Origin: a virus | DNA: 50,796 nucleotides | Strand: one strand, 5' to 3' | IMG/VR virus record: IMGVR_UViG_3300005511_000879 | Span: 1 to 50,796 of that record | In this document: one piece after another, positions 27,161 to 47,296 of the stretch | Numbering within the stretch: position 1 is the first letter of the stretch | How the letters are laid out: each line of letters begins with the position of its first letter | The notes under the pieces: generated by a model | Databases searched by the model: none | What the model was told of the DNA's origin: nothing | The model's input: the letters and a program-made list of their open reading frames with translations, nothing else | Position numbers and translations under genes: made by a program

Positions 27161-27709
27161 TCACTGGTGGCCTAAGTTGTCTCCTGTTTGCGAGACACTT
27201 TCGGTGTTGACAGCGGCGGCTTCGACGTGCGATGCGTGACCTTCGTCTGCATCGGCGGCAGGCACCAGCGCGGCCACATGCGGGCCATTTCGTTCGAACG
27301 ATTGCGCCGAGAGATTGAGCCGGCGACGAAACTCCACGAGCACGCGATAGAAGTGCGCGCGCCCTATGCCCAGGGCGGCGGCGGCCGTTTTAACGGGCTT
27401 CACGCGCACCACGTAGTACAGGTCGAACACTTGCTTTTCCAGGCTCTTGGGCTGGCAGGTGTACGCAATATGGAGCGCGGCCATCGATGCGGCGGATATA
27501 GCGTTGTCCGGCTTGTCGCGCAGCGGTCGCGTGCCTGCACCGACCCTCGCTATCGCGGCGGCTTCCTTCGACACTGGCCGTTCTAGTCGGCGCTCGCGGC
27601 ACCAGGTCACCCAGTTTTCGCAGAGGGCATCCAGTTCGCGGTCCCGCTGGTCTATCGACTCTGGCTCTTCGCCATCTGAAAGGTCATGGTGGTCGATATG
27701 AAATGTCAT
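27161..27709 (-). CDS. candidate antitermination/transcription regulator
   Basis: 182 residues. The pattern ALCENWVTWCRERRLERP followed by a helix-turn-helix-like segment (about 95-130, VFDLYYVVRVKPVKTAAAALGIGRAHFYRVLVEFRRRL) resembles the small phage regulators often annotated as Q-type antitermination or sigma-like proteins of Burkholderiales phages. It overlaps the end of the terminase gene by four bases and is followed at once by a strong terminator. That layout supports a role in letting RNA polymerase pass into the head operon, which is inference. Confidence 0.55.
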   Translation of the reverse strand: MTFHIDHHDLSDGEEPESIDQRDRELDALCENWVTWCRERRLERPVSKEAAAIARVGAGTRPLRDKPDNAISAASMAALHIAYTCQPKSLEKQVFDLYYVVRVKPVKTAAAALGIGRAHFYRVLVEFRRRLNLSAQSFERNGPHVAALVPAADADEGHASHVEAAAVNTESVSQTGDNLGHQ

Positions 27710-29820
27710 CGTCGGATTCCTCTGGACATGATTCGGCGGCCCACGTTCACCGGCGCGGCGGGCCGGACGGGGGCCAAGGGTTGGGCGACTGCCGGCGCGG
27801 GTGCCGGGGCCACTGGGGCAGGCAAAGCGGGAGGTTGTCCATACGTGTGGACGGGCTCTGGCGTGGTGGTTTCACGGGGAACGTCGGCTTCGACAGGCGC
27901 AGGCTCGGGTATGGGCTGCGCGACCTCCACTGCGGCGGGCGCGAACAGGTCCCGGGTCAGATTGGCCGGGATCAGCTTTTCCCGCAGTCGCTTCCAGTCG
28001 AGCGCTGACCACTTGTGCAGGCCCAATTGGTACGCGATGGCGAGGTTGTAGACCGACACGTCCCATGCTTCATTCCGCACGCCGTTGGGCAACTCCCATT
28101 GCCGAACGGGCCTGCCCCTGACGAACTTCGTGCGCGGAGATTCCGACACCATCTGGTCGAACCAATCAGGCTGCAGCTTGTCATGGAAGTGCATCGCCCC
28201 TGGACCATCGGCCAGATGCAGGCGCCCCGAGAGATAGTCCTTGGCAACGTCTGTGCCGACCTCCCAACGCTCCACGCCTCCGGGAACCTTGGTCCCGCCC
28301 CAGTCGATGTCGACGCGCGATGGCGAGCTGCTGATGATCGGGCGCAAGGGCCGCGTGGCGCCGGCCAGCACGGTGCAGCTCAGGCCTTTGCGCGCCGCAC
28401 CGTAGTTGTAGACATCCTGCGTATTGGCGCCGCCGGCGTCGATGCCGTAGGCGCTGATCATGAGCGGCTTGCAGCCACTGGCATGCATGAGGGGCGTGCG
28501 GCGGATCTCATCAAGCCGCTGCCACACGCTGCCCGGCGTTTCGGGCGGCTCAGTCGGCGAGCCGATCAGGGTGATGTAGTCGATCACCCAATGTTCCAGG
28601 CCCGGCCCCCAGGCCTCGATCTGTGCCTCGAGGCGGTTCGCCTGGGTGTCGACGGCCATCGTGACCACCAGCGCCGGATCCGGAATGACGCGAGGCACGT
28701 AGTCTTCGGCGCGATCGCGCAACTGCTTGGCCGTCGTCGCGTTCTCGCTGTTCTTGTAGCTCAAGCCCAACCGTGTGTTGTAGAAGGCCTGCATCAGCGT
28801 GTGATCGCCGCGCAGCAGCGCCTGCTTCGCCCGTTCGTACTGGCGGGCAAGCGACAGCCAGCCGATGGCACCGATCGGCATGTAGAAGGCCGACATCGAC
28901 ACGCTGATGGTTTCGCCATCGCCCTGGCTCTTCGCATGCCAGTGCGCGGTGCCGCCGAGCGCCTCGTCGTAGAACATCGTGGTCTTGTGACGTTCCTCGA
29001 TGTCGGCACCGCATTCCGGGCAAGTGAACCATGCGCGGTCCATGAAGCCCGTGTCGGGATCGCGGCGGTAGTGGAAGTTCTCCAGCAGCAGTTCGTGATG
29101 GTGGCCGCAACCCGGGCACGGCACGAGGTAGACCTCCTGCGTTCCCATCGCGTGCAGTTCGTCGATCTTCGAAAAGCCCTCGATGGTCGGGCTGCTGACC
29201 TCATAGAACTTGCAGTCGCGCTCATGCTGCGTTGCGCGCGCTTCGGCGATCTCGACGGAATCCCCTTCGACGAGAGGCGGCAGGCGGTCAACCTCGTCGA
29301 TGAACAGGTACCGAACAGTGATTTCGGCCAGGTTGGCCGCGGCGCCAGCGGTATTGATGTAGAGGGTGGCGTCGCCCTTGAAGTCCTTCGCCTGGCTGGT
29401 GTTGCGCTTGTCCCGGCTCTTTTCCGCCGAGACGCATTCGCGCAGCACCTTCACGTTGCGAATCGACTGCGAGATGCGTGCGCTGAAGCGCTTGGCGAGG
29501 CCGTCGGTCGGCTGCAACGCCAGGATGTTGGCCGGCGCCCGGTGGATGCAGGCGCCGATCCAGTTGATCGCGCTCTGCGTCTTGAACATCTGCGAAGCGA
29601 CCTTGGCCACAACGCGCTTGCATGGGTGCCCGGGCGACAGTACCTGGGCAATGCGGCGCGCGTAGGGTGTGCGCTCGTAGCGGAACGGGCCAGGATGCGG
29701 TGCGCTCTTAGGCAGCACCATGAATTCTTCCGACCACTCGTCGACGCGCAACTCCGGGTCCGGCCGAGCTGCCGCGGTGGCCGTCCTCATCACCAGGTCG
29801 AATCCATCGGCGATGTTCAA
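27706..29820 (-). CDS. terminase large subunit, GpA family
   Basis: 704 residues of the lambda gpA-type terminase family, the ATPase/nuclease that packages DNA. Seen are the Walker A region VAKVASQMFKTQSA, Walker B YLFIDEVDRLP, a zinc-binding pair CPGCG...CPECG, and nuclease acidic residues in VVTMAVDTQANRLEAQIEAWG and ISAYGIDAGG. I chose TTG at 29820 because GGAGG lies seven bases upstream and the codon overlaps the stop of the preceding gene (TTGA); the next ATG is at 29790. The C-terminal 80 residues are Pro/Ala-rich, a species-specific tail. Confidence 0.93.
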   Translation of the reverse strand: MNIADGFDLVMRTATAAARPDPELRVDEWSEEFMVLPKSAPHPGPFRYERTPYARRIAQVLSPGHPCKRVVAKVASQMFKTQSAINWIGACIHRAPANILALQPTDGLAKRFSARISQSIRNVKVLRECVSAEKSRDKRNTSQAKDFKGDATLYINTAGAAANLAEITVRYLFIDEVDRLPPLVEGDSVEIAEARATQHERDCKFYEVSSPTIEGFSKIDELHAMGTQEVYLVPCPGCGHHHELLLENFHYRRDPDTGFMDRAWFTCPECGADIEERHKTTMFYDEALGGTAHWHAKSQGDGETISVSMSAFYMPIGAIGWLSLARQYERAKQALLRGDHTLMQAFYNTRLGLSYKNSENATTAKQLRDRAEDYVPRVIPDPALVVTMAVDTQANRLEAQIEAWGPGLEHWVIDYITLIGSPTEPPETPGSVWQRLDEIRRTPLMHASGCKPLMISAYGIDAGGANTQDVYNYGAARKGLSCTVLAGATRPLRPIISSSPSRVDIDWGGTKVPGGVERWEVGTDVAKDYLSGRLHLADGPGAMHFHDKLQPDWFDQMVSESPRTKFVRGRPVRQWELPNGVRNEAWDVSVYNLAIAYQLGLHKWSALDWKRLREKLIPANLTRDLFAPAAVEVAQPIPEPAPVEADVPRETTTPEPVHTYGQPPALPAPVAPAPAPAVAQPLAPVRPAAPVNVGRRIMSRGIRR

Positions 29821-31070
29821 GCTGCATCCTCCGCGCTGAACAGCAGCGGCTGTACAGCACCATTCTGATAGACCGTTTCCATCACCGTGATACCCAGCGG
29901 TTCGTCGCCGTCCCAGCCGTTCGGCCATGTCTCCGCAGCGATCAGCTCGCGGATGCGAGCCTCCTCCTCGGCGTTGATCAGGCTAATCTCGGGCCGGCGC
30001 AATGCCAGCGCCGAGGCGTTGATCTCGGCCTGGATGGCCAGGATCCGCGCCAGGCCCATGAGGCGCGCTTCGAAGGTGAGCGGACCCATGCGCTGGGGGT
30101 TCTTGCCGATGCTGCCGTCCTTCAGCCGCTCAATGCCCGCCTTCTTCAGCCGGTACTGCGGTTCGCGCAGCTCGCGCCACAGGGGCCGGATGCCCTTCAG
30201 CGGGGCGAGATAGGCCCACCGCGGCAGCTTGAGCACGCTGTCCAGCGCCTTGTCTTCCTGCGCTAGCGGGCAGCCGATGCACCCCGTGCGGGCGTTGATT
30301 TCTTCGGCTTCGTCGCCGCCGTAGGCATCGGCGATCATGGCGGTGGACCAGTCGCCGAACTCGGCCCGGGGCGCCCAGTGCTTGAGCCATTCCCAGACGT
30401 GACACACCCGCCAGTGCAGCAGCGGAGCCAGCGTGGCGATGCGCCCCGCGAGGCCCTTGGCATTGGGCAGCACCTTCTGGTACCAGCCTTGCCCGCATTC
30501 GGCACCGTCCTTGCCGCAGGACATCTCGATGCGTTGGTCCCGGATCGCGCTCTCACCCTGGCGCACGCCCGTGATCATCAGCACGTTGCCTTCGTACTGG
30601 TCCAGGCGCGCAGCAATAGCGGCCTGCATCGGCTCGATCTTGATCTGGCCTGTGCACCAGCGAAGCGTATTGTTGTTGGGCGGAGGTACGCCGCGGCCCA
30701 GGATGTAGACCATGAATCGGTCATCCATCGGTGCCATCACGATCTCAACGCGGATCCCGCGCTCGCGCAGCTCGTCGACGATCTGCATGGCCGCATGCCA
30801 CAGCGGCGGCAGCTCCTGCCGGGTATCGGCCAGGAACACCGTGATGCTGCGTGGGCGCGGGATCTTGCCGGTTTCGATCAGCCAGATGATCATGGTCAGC
30901 GTGGCCGTGCTGTCCTTGCCGCCGCTCCAGGCGATGCCGATGTCCTGGTGATCCGGCAGGTAGGCCTGCAGCGACTGGATCGTGAGCTCGATGCTGTCGG
31001 TCATCTGGAGGCGCTGGCCGCCGTCGAAGAAGGTCCACTGGTGAGGCCTCGTGCTTCGTATGTCTTCCAT
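29817..31070 (-). CDS. DndC-like PP-loop/Fe-S protein (PAPS reductase family)
   Basis: 417 residues. The PP-loop SGGKDST (49-55) shows adenylation chemistry. LRWCTGQIKIEP (Cys139) and GCIGCPL (Cys264, Cys267) match the Fe-S cysteine positions of DndC, the sulfur-inserting enzyme of DNA phosphorothioation; further cysteines are Cys185 and Cys192. Family members activate a substrate with ATP and reduce or transfer sulfur. It lies between the terminase genes with overlapping stops and starts, so it is made with the packaging enzyme. No dndA, B, D or E is present in the window. It could be a PAPS reductase relative with another substrate. Confidence 0.8.
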   Translation of the reverse strand: MEDIRSTRPHQWTFFDGGQRLQMTDSIELTIQSLQAYLPDHQDIGIAWSGGKDSTATLTMIIWLIETGKIPRPRSITVFLADTRQELPPLWHAAMQIVDELRERGIRVEIVMAPMDDRFMVYILGRGVPPPNNNTLRWCTGQIKIEPMQAAIAARLDQYEGNVLMITGVRQGESAIRDQRIEMSCGKDGAECGQGWYQKVLPNAKGLAGRIATLAPLLHWRVCHVWEWLKHWAPRAEFGDWSTAMIADAYGGDEAEEINARTGCIGCPLAQEDKALDSVLKLPRWAYLAPLKGIRPLWRELREPQYRLKKAGIERLKDGSIGKNPQRMGPLTFEARLMGLARILAIQAEINASALALRRPEISLINAEEEARIRELIAAETWPNGWDGDEPLGITVMETVYQNGAVQPLLFSAEDAA

Positions 31071-31642
31071 CAGGTGGCCTCTTTGGGGGGGAGTCGCTCG
31101 AGCATCTGTGCTTCCCAGCCTTCGAAGGCTCGGCGAAGCTCGCTCACGACCTGGTGCTCGATCTCTCTCGCGTCGGCCAGGCCGACCAGCTTCGGGGACA
31201 CCCGCGGGGCGGTGGCGATCACCGCGTCACGCAACTGGCGGAAGGCATCGAAGACGGCGCGCTCGACCGTGGCTCGGTCGACCAGTCGGCCGGCTTCCTT
31301 CGCGTTCTCGCGCTCCTCGCGTTCAACGGCGGCCAGCTCACGGCGTGTGCGCAGCTCGTGGTAGCCGGCATCCTTCGACGCCTGCGCATCTGGCGCGGCG
31401 GATGACTCCGCAGGCGCCGGGGCACCCTGCCCCTCGCCTGTTTCGTTCACCACGGCGTTGCGCCCGCTGTCGGCCCTGGCGCGAGTGTTCTGGCTCCATT
31501 GGATGTCCGCGACGGCCGGGTCGATCTTGCCGTCGATGAGTGAGATCCGCTTCTCGGCGACAGCCTTGGCCACCGCCGACTTGGCGACGCCCCGGCGTCG
31601 GGCGTACTCCGACTGCGTGATCAGCGTCACCTTGTTGTTCAC
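31070..31642 (-). CDS. terminase small subunit, Nu1-like
   Basis: 190 residues. The N-terminal QSEYARRRGVAKSAVAKAVAEKRISLIDGKIDP is the DNA-binding helix-turn-helix typical of Nu1-type small subunits, which recognise the packaging site. A linker (70-90) leads to a helical oligomerisation region (ELRTRRELAAVEREERENAKEAGRLVDRATVERAVFDAFRQLRDAV). It overlaps the next gene at its stop (TGATG). A cos or pac site may lie close by but I could not identify it. Confidence 0.88.
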   Translation of the reverse strand: MNNKVTLITQSEYARRRGVAKSAVAKAVAEKRISLIDGKIDPAVADIQWSQNTRARADSGRNAVVNETGEGQGAPAPAESSAAPDAQASKDAGYHELRTRRELAAVEREERENAKEAGRLVDRATVERAVFDAFRQLRDAVIATAPRVSPKLVGLADAREIEHQVVSELRRAFEGWEAQMLERLPPKEAT

Positions 31643-39986: not shown

Positions 39987-40354
39987 AAGCCTCCGGCCTC
40001 TTCTTTCTTTGCGGGCGGCCAAGCCCTGCGCACGCGATCTCGCCCGCCGGCGGCGACACCCTTGTCTGGATGTTGCCGCTGGTGGAGCGCACGAAGCGCG
40101 GCGTGCAGAAGGTCACTGCCTATTGGCCCGGGTCCGATGCCGCCCTGTTCGTGCAGATCCACGAGGCGCGGCTCAAGCCGGGCCAGGCGCTGAACCTCGA
40201 ATTTGACCGCGTGCGCCCCGTGCTGAACGAGCTGACGGCCACCGTCACCAGCTGCGCGCTCGCCCCCGATCGATGGCCGAAGACCGAGGTCGATCCCACC
40301 GCCGCTCCCCAATCCGCAACCACCGCAGCGCCTGGCTGCACGAGCAATTCATGA
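39983..40354 (+). CDS. hypothetical early protein
   Basis: 123 residues; beta-rich centre (DTLVWMLPLVERTKRGVQKVTAYWPGSDAALF, ALNLEFDRVRPVLNELTATVTSCALAP) and a low-complexity end. ATG overlaps the upstream stop. The strand pattern could fit an OB-fold, but no diagnostic motif is present. Confidence 0.6.
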   Translation: MKASGLFFLCGRPSPAHAISPAGGDTLVWMLPLVERTKRGVQKVTAYWPGSDAALFVQIHEARLKPGQALNLEFDRVRPVLNELTATVTSCALAPDRWPKTEVDPTAAPQSATTAAPGCTSNS

Positions 40355-41052
40355 AGAAACACATCATCGGCCTTACGGGCCTCGCAGGCGTTGGCAAAGA
40401 CACCGTCGCCGATCTGCTGATCACGCACTGCGGTTTCCGCAAGCTGGCCTTCGCCGACGCACTGCGCGTAGAAGTCGCCGAGGGTTTCGGCATCGACATT
40501 CGGTTGCTGACCGACCCTGCGACGAAGAACGAGCCGACCGACGCGCTCGCACTTAGCAAGTGCACGCATCGGCCCTTCCTCTATGCCGTGATCGCCACGC
40601 TCGCGGTCCGGGGCGACGCGCCGAAGACTGCCGCCGAATGGGCCATCTTCCTGGCGGCACCTCGATCACCGCGGCAGATCATGCAGTGGTGGGCCACGGA
40701 GTACCGCCGCACTGAAGACCCACGCTACTGGACACGGCAACTGTTGCAACGCGTCGTGGATTACCAGCGCGACGGCGCGATGCGCCTCATCGTGACCGAT
40801 TGCCGCTTCGCCAATGAAGTCGACACGCTGTATGCCATGGGAGGCCTACTCTGGCAGGTGACGCGCCCCGGCGTGAATCCCGATACGACCCCGGAAGGCA
40901 AGCATGTCAGCGCCACGGATGGCTCGCATTTCAAGCCCAGCATCGTCATTGCGAACGCGTACGACATCCGGCACCTGCAGCAGTTGGTCCTGAGCGATTT
41001 CTTCGCCCTGGAGACTGGCATCCCCTCCGCGAAAGTGACGGTGGCCGAATGA
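40351..41052 (+). CDS. deoxynucleoside monophosphate kinase, T4 gp1-like
   Basis: 233 residues. The P-loop GLTGLAGVGKDTVADLL (8-24), the FADALR segment and the SPRQIMQWWATEYRR motif identify a phage dNMP kinase, which phosphorylates dNMPs (in some phages modified ones) for DNA synthesis. Its first codon overlaps the upstream stop and its end overlaps the next gene. Length and motifs look intact. Confidence 0.85.
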   Translation: MKKHIIGLTGLAGVGKDTVADLLITHCGFRKLAFADALRVEVAEGFGIDIRLLTDPATKNEPTDALALSKCTHRPFLYAVIATLAVRGDAPKTAAEWAIFLAAPRSPRQIMQWWATEYRRTEDPRYWTRQLLQRVVDYQRDGAMRLIVTDCRFANEVDTLYAMGGLLWQVTRPGVNPDTTPEGKHVSATDGSHFKPSIVIANAYDIRHLQQLVLSDFFALETGIPSAKVTVAE

Positions 41053-44538: not shown

Positions 44539-45407
44539 ACGCCATCATCAACCTGGCGCAGCCCATCACCGCCCTGTTCACCCCCCTGCCGGAGTTCGTG
44601 AGCACCGCCCAGCTGTTAGCCGCGCTCGGCATCGAGCGAGTGGATTACCGCACCGCTATGCACATTCGCGATTGGATGGAGCAGCAATCCTGGCGCCCAA
44701 CCATCCAGCGCGTCAACGGCATTCATGTGCGCGGCTACGCGAGGCCGGCCACCCCGATTGACGACGCCAGCAACCTGCGTGCCCTCATCGTGCAATACGG
44801 CAATGCGTCATATCGGCACGACGCGGGATCCGCCTCTGCGCTGGGCAAGAAGATCAACGCACTGGTCGATTCCAGGGCAGCCGCATCAGCAGCCGCGCAG
44901 CCTGGCGAACCGCAGGATGGCGACCGCCTGAAGTGGCTGATCGACACCATGTCGTGCGAAGCGCTGATCGAGGTCGGGATCTTCCCGTTCGTCATGTCCT
45001 CCGACAGTGACTGGCGAGTGCTGGTCGACGACGCCATGCGAGCGCATGCGAAGCGCTCGCAGGATGGCACGTGCAGGACCATGACCAGCAAGGCGCTGAA
45101 AGCTGTCATCGCGGAACGCCTGCGCCAGCAGTCCGACGAAGGCTGGACCCCGGAGCACGACGACGAGCACGTCAATGACGAACTCGCCGCCATGGCCGCC
45201 TACTACGCCATGCCCGTTGGCGCCCGCGACTGGCCGGCCTCGGAAACCGGCTACGGCGCGACCTTCGGCGAGGCCATCCGCCCCGAGGGCTGGCAAGCCA
45301 AGGAGAGCGATCGGTGGGATGAACTGGTCAAGGCCGGCGCGCTGGTGTTGAGCGAGCTGGAGCGCCTCGAGCGCGCCGATGCTGTCTTGACGGGCGGTGC
45401 GGCATGA
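44535..45407 (+). CDS. two-part hypothetical early protein
   Basis: 290 residues. The N-terminal half (MNAIINLAQPITALFTPLPEFVSTAQLLAALGIERVDYRTAMHIRDWM) includes a small DNA-binding-like helix pair. The C-terminal 105 residues (MTSKALKAVIAERLRQQSDEGWTPEHDDEHVNDELAAMAAYYAMP) match a widespread phage module with the signature ER-RQ---EGWTPEHDD, which exists as a separate gene in other phages. It appears to be a fusion. The module's function is not established. Confidence 0.7.
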   Translation: MNAIINLAQPITALFTPLPEFVSTAQLLAALGIERVDYRTAMHIRDWMEQQSWRPTIQRVNGIHVRGYARPATPIDDASNLRALIVQYGNASYRHDAGSASALGKKINALVDSRAAASAAAQPGEPQDGDRLKWLIDTMSCEALIEVGIFPFVMSSDSDWRVLVDDAMRAHAKRSQDGTCRTMTSKALKAVIAERLRQQSDEGWTPEHDDEHVNDELAAMAAYYAMPVGARDWPASETGYGATFGEAIRPEGWQAKESDRWDELVKAGALVLSELERLERADAVLTGGAA

Positions 45408-47296
45408 ACACGGTTGAGATCAGGCACTTTCATGCGTTCGTGGGCCTGGGCGGCGGCGCACGCGGCTTCAACAAGGCCAATCCACGCGTTGGCAACACGC
45501 AGGCGAAGTTCCGCTGCATCGGCGGCATCGATGTCGACGCGGCGGCCATCCGCGACTTCAACCGGCTCGCCGGTGTCCAGGGCACGGTGCTGGATCTCTT
45601 CGATCGCAGCCAGTACGAGGCGTTTCACGGCCGCACGCCGCCGGCCGCATGGGTCGAGGCCACGGTGGCCGACGTGCACCGCGCGGCCGGCCACGAGCGT
45701 CCGCACATCATCTTTCTCTCGGCTCCGTGCAAGGGCTTCAGCGGCCTGCTGTCCGAAGGCAAGAGCAAGACCGACAAGTACCAGGCGCTCAACCGGCTCA
45801 CGCTGCGCGGCGTGTGGCTGATGCTCGAGGCCTGGAAAGACGATCCGGTCGAAATGATCCTGTTCGAGAACGTGCCGCGCATCGCCACGCGCGGCCGGCA
45901 CCTGCTCGACCAGATCACCGGCCTGCTGCGCAGCTACGGCTACGCAGTGGCCGAGACGACGCACGACTGCGGCGAGATCGGTGGCCTGGCCCAAAGTCGC
46001 AAGCGCTTCCTGCTGGTGGCGCGCCACATCGAGAAGGTGCCGCCCTTCCTGTACGAGCCCGAGAAGCGCCCCCTGCGTGCGGTGGGCGACGTGCTGGGCA
46101 AGATGCTGATGCCGGGCGACATGCGCGCAGGCCCGATGCACCGCATCCCCGCGCTGCAATGGAAGACCTGGGTGCGTCTGGCCTTCGTCGAGGCCGGCAG
46201 CGACTGGCGCAGCCTGAACAAGCTGGCTGTGGAGAACGGGCACCTGCGCGACTACCTGATCGTTCCTGAGATGCATGGCGGTGCCCTCGGAGTGCGAGAG
46301 TGGTCGAAGCCGTCAGGCGTGGTTGCGGGCCGCAGCTTCCCACTGAACGGCGCGTTCTCGGTCGCTGACCCGCGTCAGCAGCTCTATGCAGCCGGCTACG
46401 GCGTCACGTCCTGGGATGCGACCAGCGGCGCCGTAGCGGGAGAGTCGCTGCCGTCGAATGGCAAGTTCGCGGTGGCTGATCCGCGCGCGCCTGCGGCCGC
46501 GCTGCAGTACCAGCAGTACGGCGTGCTGGACTGGGCCGAGCCGATGGGCGCGGTGATCGGCGTGAAGTCGCCTGGCCAAGGCACGTTCAGCGTGGCGGAC
46601 CCGCGCGCCAGCGGCGTGCGCCACAACAACGTGTTCCGCGTGGTGCCGTGGGACAAGCCGGGCACGACGGTCACAGCCGGCACCGGCCCATCCGCCGGCG
46701 GCACCGCGGTAGCAGATCCTCGCCAGCCCGGCCTCGCGTTCAGCAAGTACTCGGTGACGGCGTTCGACGAAGCGGCCGGCACGGTCATCAGCGGTAGCAC
46801 CACCGGCCAGGGCGCATTCGCCGTGGCAGACCCGCGCAGCGGCATCCAGCGCGGCAAGGGCGACAACTACCTGACGGCCGGTCACTACGGCGTGATGCCG
46901 TGGACCGAGCCCGCCGGCGCCGTGAGCGCGGCAGCCGGCCACGACAACGGCCGGTGGAGCGTCGCAGATCCGCGCATGCCTGCCGCGGCCGACAAGGTGG
47001 TGTGCCGCATCCAGGCGCTCGACGGCACCTGGCACCGCCCTTTCACCACGCTGGAACTGGCAGCTCTGCAATCGCTGTTCGATCCGGAGGAACGCTTCGA
47101 GCTGGACGGGTTGAGCGATCAGGCATGGCGCGAGCGTATCGGCAACGCCGTGCCCAGCGACGCCGCCTGCGCAATCGCGGGCGTGATGGGCACCACGCTG
47201 CTGTTGGCCTGGAGCGGCGAGACGTTCATGCTGTCCGCGCAGCCGATCTGGGTGCGCGACGTGGCGATGGCTTTGGCCGTCCAGGGAGGCATCTGA
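45404..47296 (+). CDS. cytosine-C5 DNA methyltransferase with VADPR repeats
   Basis: 630 residues. Motif I FVGLGGGARGF (12-22), motif IV SAPCKGFSG with the nucleophile Cys109, motif VI FENV (154-157), motif VIII QSRKRFLLVA (197-206) and motif X RIGNAVPSDAA are all present, so a C5 methyltransferase is likely active. Between motifs VIII and X, where target recognition occurs, are six repeats of 37-46 residues ending in VADPR. It overlaps its upstream neighbour by four bases. It could protect phage DNA from host restriction. No cognate nuclease is seen. Confidence 0.9.
   Translation: MNTVEIRHFHAFVGLGGGARGFNKANPRVGNTQAKFRCIGGIDVDAAAIRDFNRLAGVQGTVLDLFDRSQYEAFHGRTPPAAWVEATVADVHRAAGHERPHIIFLSAPCKGFSGLLSEGKSKTDKYQALNRLTLRGVWLMLEAWKDDPVEMILFENVPRIATRGRHLLDQITGLLRSYGYAVAETTHDCGEIGGLAQSRKRFLLVARHIEKVPPFLYEPEKRPLRAVGDVLGKMLMPGDMRAGPMHRIPALQWKTWVRLAFVEAGSDWRSLNKLAVENGHLRDYLIVPEMHGGALGVREWSKPSGVVAGRSFPLNGAFSVADPRQQLYAAGYGVTSWDATSGAVAGESLPSNGKFAVADPRAPAAALQYQQYGVLDWAEPMGAVIGVKSPGQGTFSVADPRASGVRHNNVFRVVPWDKPGTTVTAGTGPSAGGTAVADPRQPGLAFSKYSVTAFDEAAGTVISGSTTGQGAFAVADPRSGIQRGKGDNYLTAGHYGVMPWTEPAGAVSAAAGHDNGRWSVADPRMPAAADKVVCRIQALDGTWHRPFTTLELAALQSLFDPEERFELDGLSDQAWRERIGNAVPSDAACAIAGVMGTTLLLAWSGETFMLSAQPIWVRDVAMALAVQGGI
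46301..46975 (+). repeat. six VADPR repeats inside methyltransferase
   Basis: Six repeats with spacings of 37, 40, 39, 38 and 46 residues, pattern W--P-GAV-G-S---G-F-VADPR. The DNA repeats are diverged, so the protein pattern is maintained by selection. They fill the target-recognition region. Confidence 0.85.

Follow-up and report, generated by a model that had tools for sequence, protein, structure and literature searches.

A DndC-related PP-loop gene in the terminase operon of a phage as a candidate for DNA modification

The terminase operon and the DndC-like family

The window analysed in this study is the whole IMG/VR virus record, 50,796 bases in length, and its features are collected in Table 1. 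The DndC-like gene, which encodes the protein P0001, lies between the genes of the small (TerS) and large (TerL) terminase subunits. The initial annotation had placed a PP-loop gene of the DndC type between these genes with overlapping starts and stops, and analysis of the sequence bore this out, with the two neighbours identified by phrog_57 and by GpA domains. The TerS stop and the DndC-like start have one base in common in the sequence TGATG, and the DndC-like stop overlaps the TTG start of TerL in the sequence TTGA at 29820. The longest open reading frame of TerL starts at 29928; the TTG start at 29820 was instead placed by homology, since TerL homologues start with MNLADG and the record reads (L)NIADG, which fits this start. 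P0001 belongs to the family phrog_12882 and matches positions 4–403 of the 404 positions of its profile. Because this full-length match reaches 761.6 bits, the DndC-like reading frame does not occur by chance; it is a real gene that is translationally coupled between TerS and TerL.

Table 1. Genes and conserved residues of the window
Feature	Coordinates	Strand	Evidence
TerS, terminase small subunit	31070..31642	minus	phrog_57, 84.5 bits; upstream of the DndC-like gene
P0001, DndC-like PP-loop protein, 417 aa	31070..29817	minus	phrog_12882, 761.6 bits; PF01507, 36.5 bits; DndC models, 103–115.6 bits
PP-loop SGGKDS, residues 49–54	30909..30926	minus	Invariant in 48 homologues
C139 in RWCT, aligned with DndC Cys146	30654..30656	minus	Alignment; invariant in 48 homologues
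C185 and C192 (SCGKDGAEC)	30495..30518	minus	Invariant in phrog_12882, absent from DndC
C223	30402..30404	minus	Invariant in phrog_12882, absent from DndC
GCIGC, C264 and C267, aligned with DndC Cys280 and Cys283	30270..30284	minus	Alignment; invariant in 48 homologues
TerL, terminase large subunit	27706..29820	minus	GpA_ATPase, 200 bits, and GpA_nuclease, 248 bits; downstream of the DndC-like gene
C5-type DNA methyltransferase	45404..47296	plus	PF00145, 45.5 bits; 65% identical to Dobby gp45

The phrog_12882 family is annotated as "phosphoadenosine phosphosulfate reductase" (PAPS reductase), and its member in phiC725A carries the annotation DndC. Relatives of the DndC-like protein were found in 16 phage records, and searches by sequence patterns recovered 311 viral-contig stretches and 134 species-genome stretches, with the genomes including those of Variovorax, Pseudomonas, Rhizobium, Sphingomonas, Methylobacterium, and Hymenobacter. 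The phrog_12882 proteins of phiC725A, Dobby, vB_PaeM-D14A, RR1-A, and Mae-JY29 are, like P0001, full-length homologues, 63–75% identical, and carry the same six cysteines. In the phrog_12882 phages examined, the gene stands beside DNA methyltransferase genes or replication and integrase genes, and in annotated phage relatives it lies near replication, recombination, or integrase genes; P0001, unlike those examined, is encoded in the terminase operon.

Elsewhere in the window, a deoxynucleoside monophosphate kinase is encoded at 40273–41052 on the plus strand (phrog_139, 149.6 bits). In some phages, kinases of this type can be employed for modified nucleotides, so this enzyme may bear on DNA modification. 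At 36528–38220, also on the plus strand, a gene with no Pfam match lies next to that of a HipA-like kinase (PF20613, 31.8 bits), and the two may form a toxin-antitoxin or defence pair.

Relation to DndC and to PAPS reductases

Comparison of P0001 with profiles of DndC and of CysH (PAPS/APS reductase) revealed a closer kinship with DndC. P0001 scored 103 bits with the NCBIfam DndC model TIGR03183, below its cut-off of 290.4, and 115.6 bits with the PADLOC model, versus 16.4 bits with the CysH model, which is far below its cut-off of 154; PF01507, a wider domain than CysH, matched above its cut-off. Profile–profile alignment with DndC gave a score of 285.4 (probability 99.96) over 331 columns, spanning residues 11–375, versus 39.0 (38.7) with CysH, and the extra C-terminal region of phrog_12882 aligned with DndC and not with CysH. 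P0001 has the PP-loop fold in common with CysH, but the CGxH cysteine, which is catalytic in sulfonucleotide reductases, is present in all 13 CysH references and in none of the 48 phrog_12882 members, with C267 being the last cysteine of P0001. In a small tree, phrog_12882, its relative in the Thermus phage Tsatsa, and one DndC-like sequence grouped in one clade that excludes CysH and CysD (support of 0.985), the deeper branches being weak (support of approximately 0.5). These comparisons uphold the kinship with DndC proposed at the outset and indicate that the phage gene is a cousin of DndC, a metabolic PAPS reductase being unlikely because the CGxH cysteine is missing throughout and the CysH profile match is weak.

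DndC and P0001 have in common the SGGKDS PP-loop, the cysteines of the RWCT and GCxxC motifs, and the C-terminal region. Six cysteines (C139, C185, C192, C223, C264, and C267) are invariant across the 48 homologues. In DndC of E. coli B7A, Cys146, Cys280, and Cys283 are the cluster ligands (numbering and roles from PMC12193691). Two further conserved cysteines of DndC, Cys262 and Cys273, are present in eight of eight DndC references and missing from phrog_12882; a DndC-specific cysteine dyad is proposed to act as acceptor and relay of sulfur (PMC10853773). P0001 has three cysteines of its own, C185, C192, and C223, which were also found in the Tsatsa relative. The description of these residues as Fe-S cysteines of the DndC type thus holds for C139, C264, and C267, but not for the missing pair or for the three new invariant cysteines. 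If phrog_12882 holds an Fe-S cluster, its fourth ligand and its sulfur relay must differ from those of DndC. BrxP (type 4 BREX) and SspD are PP-loop sulfur enzymes like P0001, but they gave weaker matches (41.7 and 34.4 bits) and, unlike the stand-alone P0001, belong to multi-gene systems; BrxP is described as being without the DndC cysteine dyad (PMC12839542).

The AlphaFold2 model of P0001 has a pLDDT of 81.8 and a pTM of 0.81, with residues 180–193 below a pLDDT of 50. Fold searches with this model, which covered mainly residues up to approximately 290, matched ATP sulfurylase (Z 15.1, 184 residues, 6.3 Å), NcsA (Z 13.1, 192 residues, 4.0 Å), and TtuA (Z 11.8), as well as FAD synthase, TilS, PAPS reductases, and APS reductases; no DndC chain was present among the matches listed. 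A sequence search of solved structures returned argininosuccinate synthase as the sole match (E of approximately 0.9). The structural comparison with DndC and PAPS reductases that had been suggested for this protein therefore recovered a PP-loop fold through matches of a general kind, and the predicted model points to a fold and not to a function.

DndA, DndD, and DndE had been taken as absent. This holds for DndD and for the cysteine desulfurase family, which had no match in the record in searches that were positive in control genomes; the DndE search gave no match in the record and none in the controls either. Host Dnd proteins are unlikely to serve regularly as partners: 2 of the 49 host genomes contain a DndD that exceeds the cut-off (two more near-full-length matches fell below it). 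DndC exceeded its cut-off in 9 of the 200 genomes of the phylum that were searched, and in one host genome, G051, a full DndC occurs together with a phrog_12882 member. Apart from the cluster of the gene itself, no neighbour cluster was present in more than 46 of the 167 loci. The DndC-like protein probably either needs no partner or relies on general proteins of the host; in vitro, IscS can stand in for DndA (PMC10853773). By sequence, phrog_12882 belongs to the DndC branch, yet is not a true DndC, since the extra cysteine pair is missing, the score lies below the DndC cut-off, the family has cysteines of its own, and no DndD or desulfurase gene was detected.

The TerS–TerL slot and the methyltransferase neighbours

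We surveyed 111 TerL loci, of which 80 were unique and 71 had a recognized TerS. The TerS–TerL gap measured ≤87 bp in 51 loci, 182–586 bp in 8, and >700 bp in 12, one of these 12 (G001) being a second record of the same phage (99.99–100%). Analysis of the other 11 large inserts revealed a C5 DNA methyltransferase in eight (L291, L295, L327, L340, L341, L345, L346, and L348) and a D12 adenine methyltransferase in L357, leaving two inserts without a methyltransferase (L326 and L369). Five of the nine methyltransferases were confirmed by Pfam (L291, L327, L340, L345, and L357, all five of those run being positive), and the assignments of L295, L341, and L346 rest on similarity and that of L348 on reading and similarity. 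One family in related phages accounts for six of the eight C5 genes, so the insertions represent fewer events than loci. With a home-made gene caller that missed some genes and a reference set that would miss rare methyltransferase types, the methyltransferase references matched none of the 596 called genes outside the slot and 7 of the 17 called slot genes; the latter count is partly circular because the reference set holds three slot-derived sequences, while the former is not.

Because 9 of the 11 large inserts hold a DNA methyltransferase and none of the 596 genes outside matched the references, the TerS–TerL gap is a slot for DNA-modification genes, in which the DndC-like gene is one occupant and not a conserved terminase partner. 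Among the 71 surveyed pairs, only this phage (via G001) carries the DndC-like gene in the slot, and all 29 other records searched whole were without it. Conservation of the gene between the terminase genes of other phages, which the initial annotation had proposed to survey, was thus rejected, and the suggested special link to packaging is weak, with the terminase position confined to this phage and the relatives lying near other types of gene.

A sister phage (L266:2322–4690, the same contig as L327) carries in this slot a PP-loop protein of another kind (phrog_424, 177 bits), with a C5 methyltransferase after it. This is a further and separate case in which a PP-loop enzyme is paired with DNA modification.

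Outside the slot, genes were taken to abut when they lie ≤150 bp apart on the same strand. By this definition, the DndC-like gene has a DNA methyltransferase as its direct neighbour in 43 of 167 loci, and the same is true of 76 of 2426 other genes; the loci are centred on the DndC-like gene and somewhat favour its own neighbours. After dereplication to one locus per 92% cluster, the counts were 28 of 137 versus 65 of 2026 (Fisher p 2.8e-13), with 1 of 138 clusters dropped, its chimeric gene itself matching the references. Upstream or downstream of the DndC-like gene, the abutting enzymes belong to two C5 families, to D12, to an SNF2-helicase-methyltransferase type, and to one further type. When the same measure was applied to 15 other recurrent neighbour families, 14 were in no case next to a methyltransferase, and the remaining one was so in 7/15. 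The DndC-like and methyltransferase reading frames share four bases in Dobby, D14A, and RR1-A.

Among family loci, 35 of the 80 from viruses and 28 of the 80 from genomes contain a C5 methyltransferase, versus 35 of 80 RecT control loci. Since the control loci hold these enzymes equally often, only adjacency is special and not presence, and a simple enrichment of C5 methyltransferases near the DndC-like gene was removed by this control; the genomic association with DNA methyltransferases consists of adjacency and slot sharing. PF00145 was found in 16 of 50 viral loci, which is not a rate, as the loci omitted from the 80 were mostly known positives or short, and the search missed the G001 methyltransferase, which is present. 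The SNF2-methyltransferase is present in 36 of 160 family loci versus 2 of 80 RecT loci, a set that is not host-matched.

The C5-type methyltransferase of the window is a homologue of gp45 of Dobby. In Dobby, this gene lies immediately before the DndC-like gene, whereas in the window it lies far off on the opposite strand. The Pfam match of the window enzyme covers residues 100–214 only, and by eye its middle is odd, with repeated segments ending in VADPR. An obligate pairing with this methyltransferase type was rejected, as eight of eight phages with the nearest relatives of the enzyme are without the DndC-like gene. At L005:1–2529, a large protein unites parts of an SNF2-type helicase and of a DNA methyltransferase (phrog_16 and phrog_67, shown for L057), and similar genes recur close to the DndC-like gene in about 30 family loci. 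At L146:9167–11023 (Azohydromonas lata), the N-terminus of an SNF2-type helicase-methyltransferase reads into the DndC-like gene; we rejected a functional fusion, and the locus is probably a decayed prophage junction because the PP-loop is lost. In L032, L033, L035, and L077, a reverse-transcriptase-like gene (360–364 aa, recognized by eye) directly precedes the DndC-like gene.

Proposed function and its alternatives

We propose, with a probability of roughly 0.5, that P0001 is a stand-alone DndC-related PP-loop ATP pyrophosphatase with a probable Fe-S site, which would modify phage DNA, most likely with sulfur, and thereby resist host restriction. ATP would bind to SGGKDS and activate (adenylate) a DNA oxygen, and a host cysteine desulfurase such as IscS would supply sulfur, which would pass via a cluster on C139, C264, and C267, and perhaps one of C185, C192, and C223, to replace that oxygen. 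The protein would thus do the same job as the phage DNA methyltransferases occupying the slot in sister phages, and it is because of these slot-mates that the gene probably marks phage DNA and does not serve sulfur metabolism. The methyltransferases in the same slot and adjoining its relatives strengthen the earlier idea of a mark on phage DNA, and the chemistry and the DNA target are what we infer. To our knowledge, phosphorothioation by DndC alone has no precedent, the known systems needing further subunits. Since a single PP-loop protein is usual in tRNA base thiolation, thiolation of DNA bases merits equal attention to phosphorothioation. More tentatively, one gene may suffice to thiolate DNA, in base or backbone, without the scanning partners of Dnd or Ssp, providing many temperate phages with an anti-restriction mark that replaces or accompanies methyltransferases; in this phage, production in the terminase operon would allow DNA to be marked at packaging.

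A PP-loop enzyme of this kind might instead thiolate or otherwise alter host or phage tRNA, as TtcA, NcsA, and TtuA do, and so tune translation in infection. Action as a single protein, which is usual for tRNA thiolation, counts in favour of such a role, as do the model matches to TilS and to NcsA and TtuA with their [4Fe-4S] clusters, which are about as good as those to other PP-loop enzymes. However, the sequence ties P0001 to DndC, the record contains no tRNA gene, and the neighbours and slot-mates are DNA methyltransferases, which makes a tRNA substrate unlikely. We likewise doubt that the gene is an accessory (moron) gene unrelated to DNA modification that merely lies where accessory genes gather. 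Its relatives do lie near integrases and other accessory genes, and C5 methyltransferases are equally frequent around RecT in similar phages, but all except one of the 15 other recurrent neighbour families never abut a methyltransferase and the large slot inserts are nearly all methyltransferases.

The DndC ancestry with altered cysteines, together with the host genome holding both a full DndC and a phrog_12882 member, would also suit a factor directed against Dnd or Ssp, which would copy the host sulfur mark onto phage DNA or act as a decoy subunit that poisons DndCDE. DndD is nevertheless no more frequent in the host genomes with the gene (2/49) than DndC is in genomes of the phylum (9/200), and we consider this role quite improbable. 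The least credible assignment is a metabolic PAPS/APS reductase, a cysH-type auxiliary gene boosting host sulfate assimilation: the PF01507 match, the family annotation, and the fold common to PAPS and APS reductases agree with it, but the catalytic CGxH is absent from 48 of 48 members, the CysH score is very low, and the C-terminal region aligns with DndC.

Phage PAPS reductases have been read as metabolic (PMC9144972, PMC5463345), and phage cysH/PAPS reductase genes as altering sulfur cycling (e.g., PMC10914622). In Mycobacterium abscessus, a PAPS reductase-like protein of a prophage has been noted to resemble DndC (PMC8092301), and PAPS reductase homologues in mobile elements are discussed in PMC11437467, where the passages concerned leave their function open. 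The literature searched, which covered few subscription papers, yielded no experimental study of phrog_12882 and no report of the TerS–TerL slot. For phrog_12882, to which this statement is limited, the absence of the catalytic motif contradicts the sulfur-metabolism reading. If the proposed DNA modification is true, the family would provide a sulfur-based counterpart to phage methyltransferases and perhaps a DNA sulfur enzyme encoded by a single gene, making it simpler to study a chemistry so far known from multi-gene systems. The TerS–TerL slot serves as a simple finder for other anti-restriction genes.
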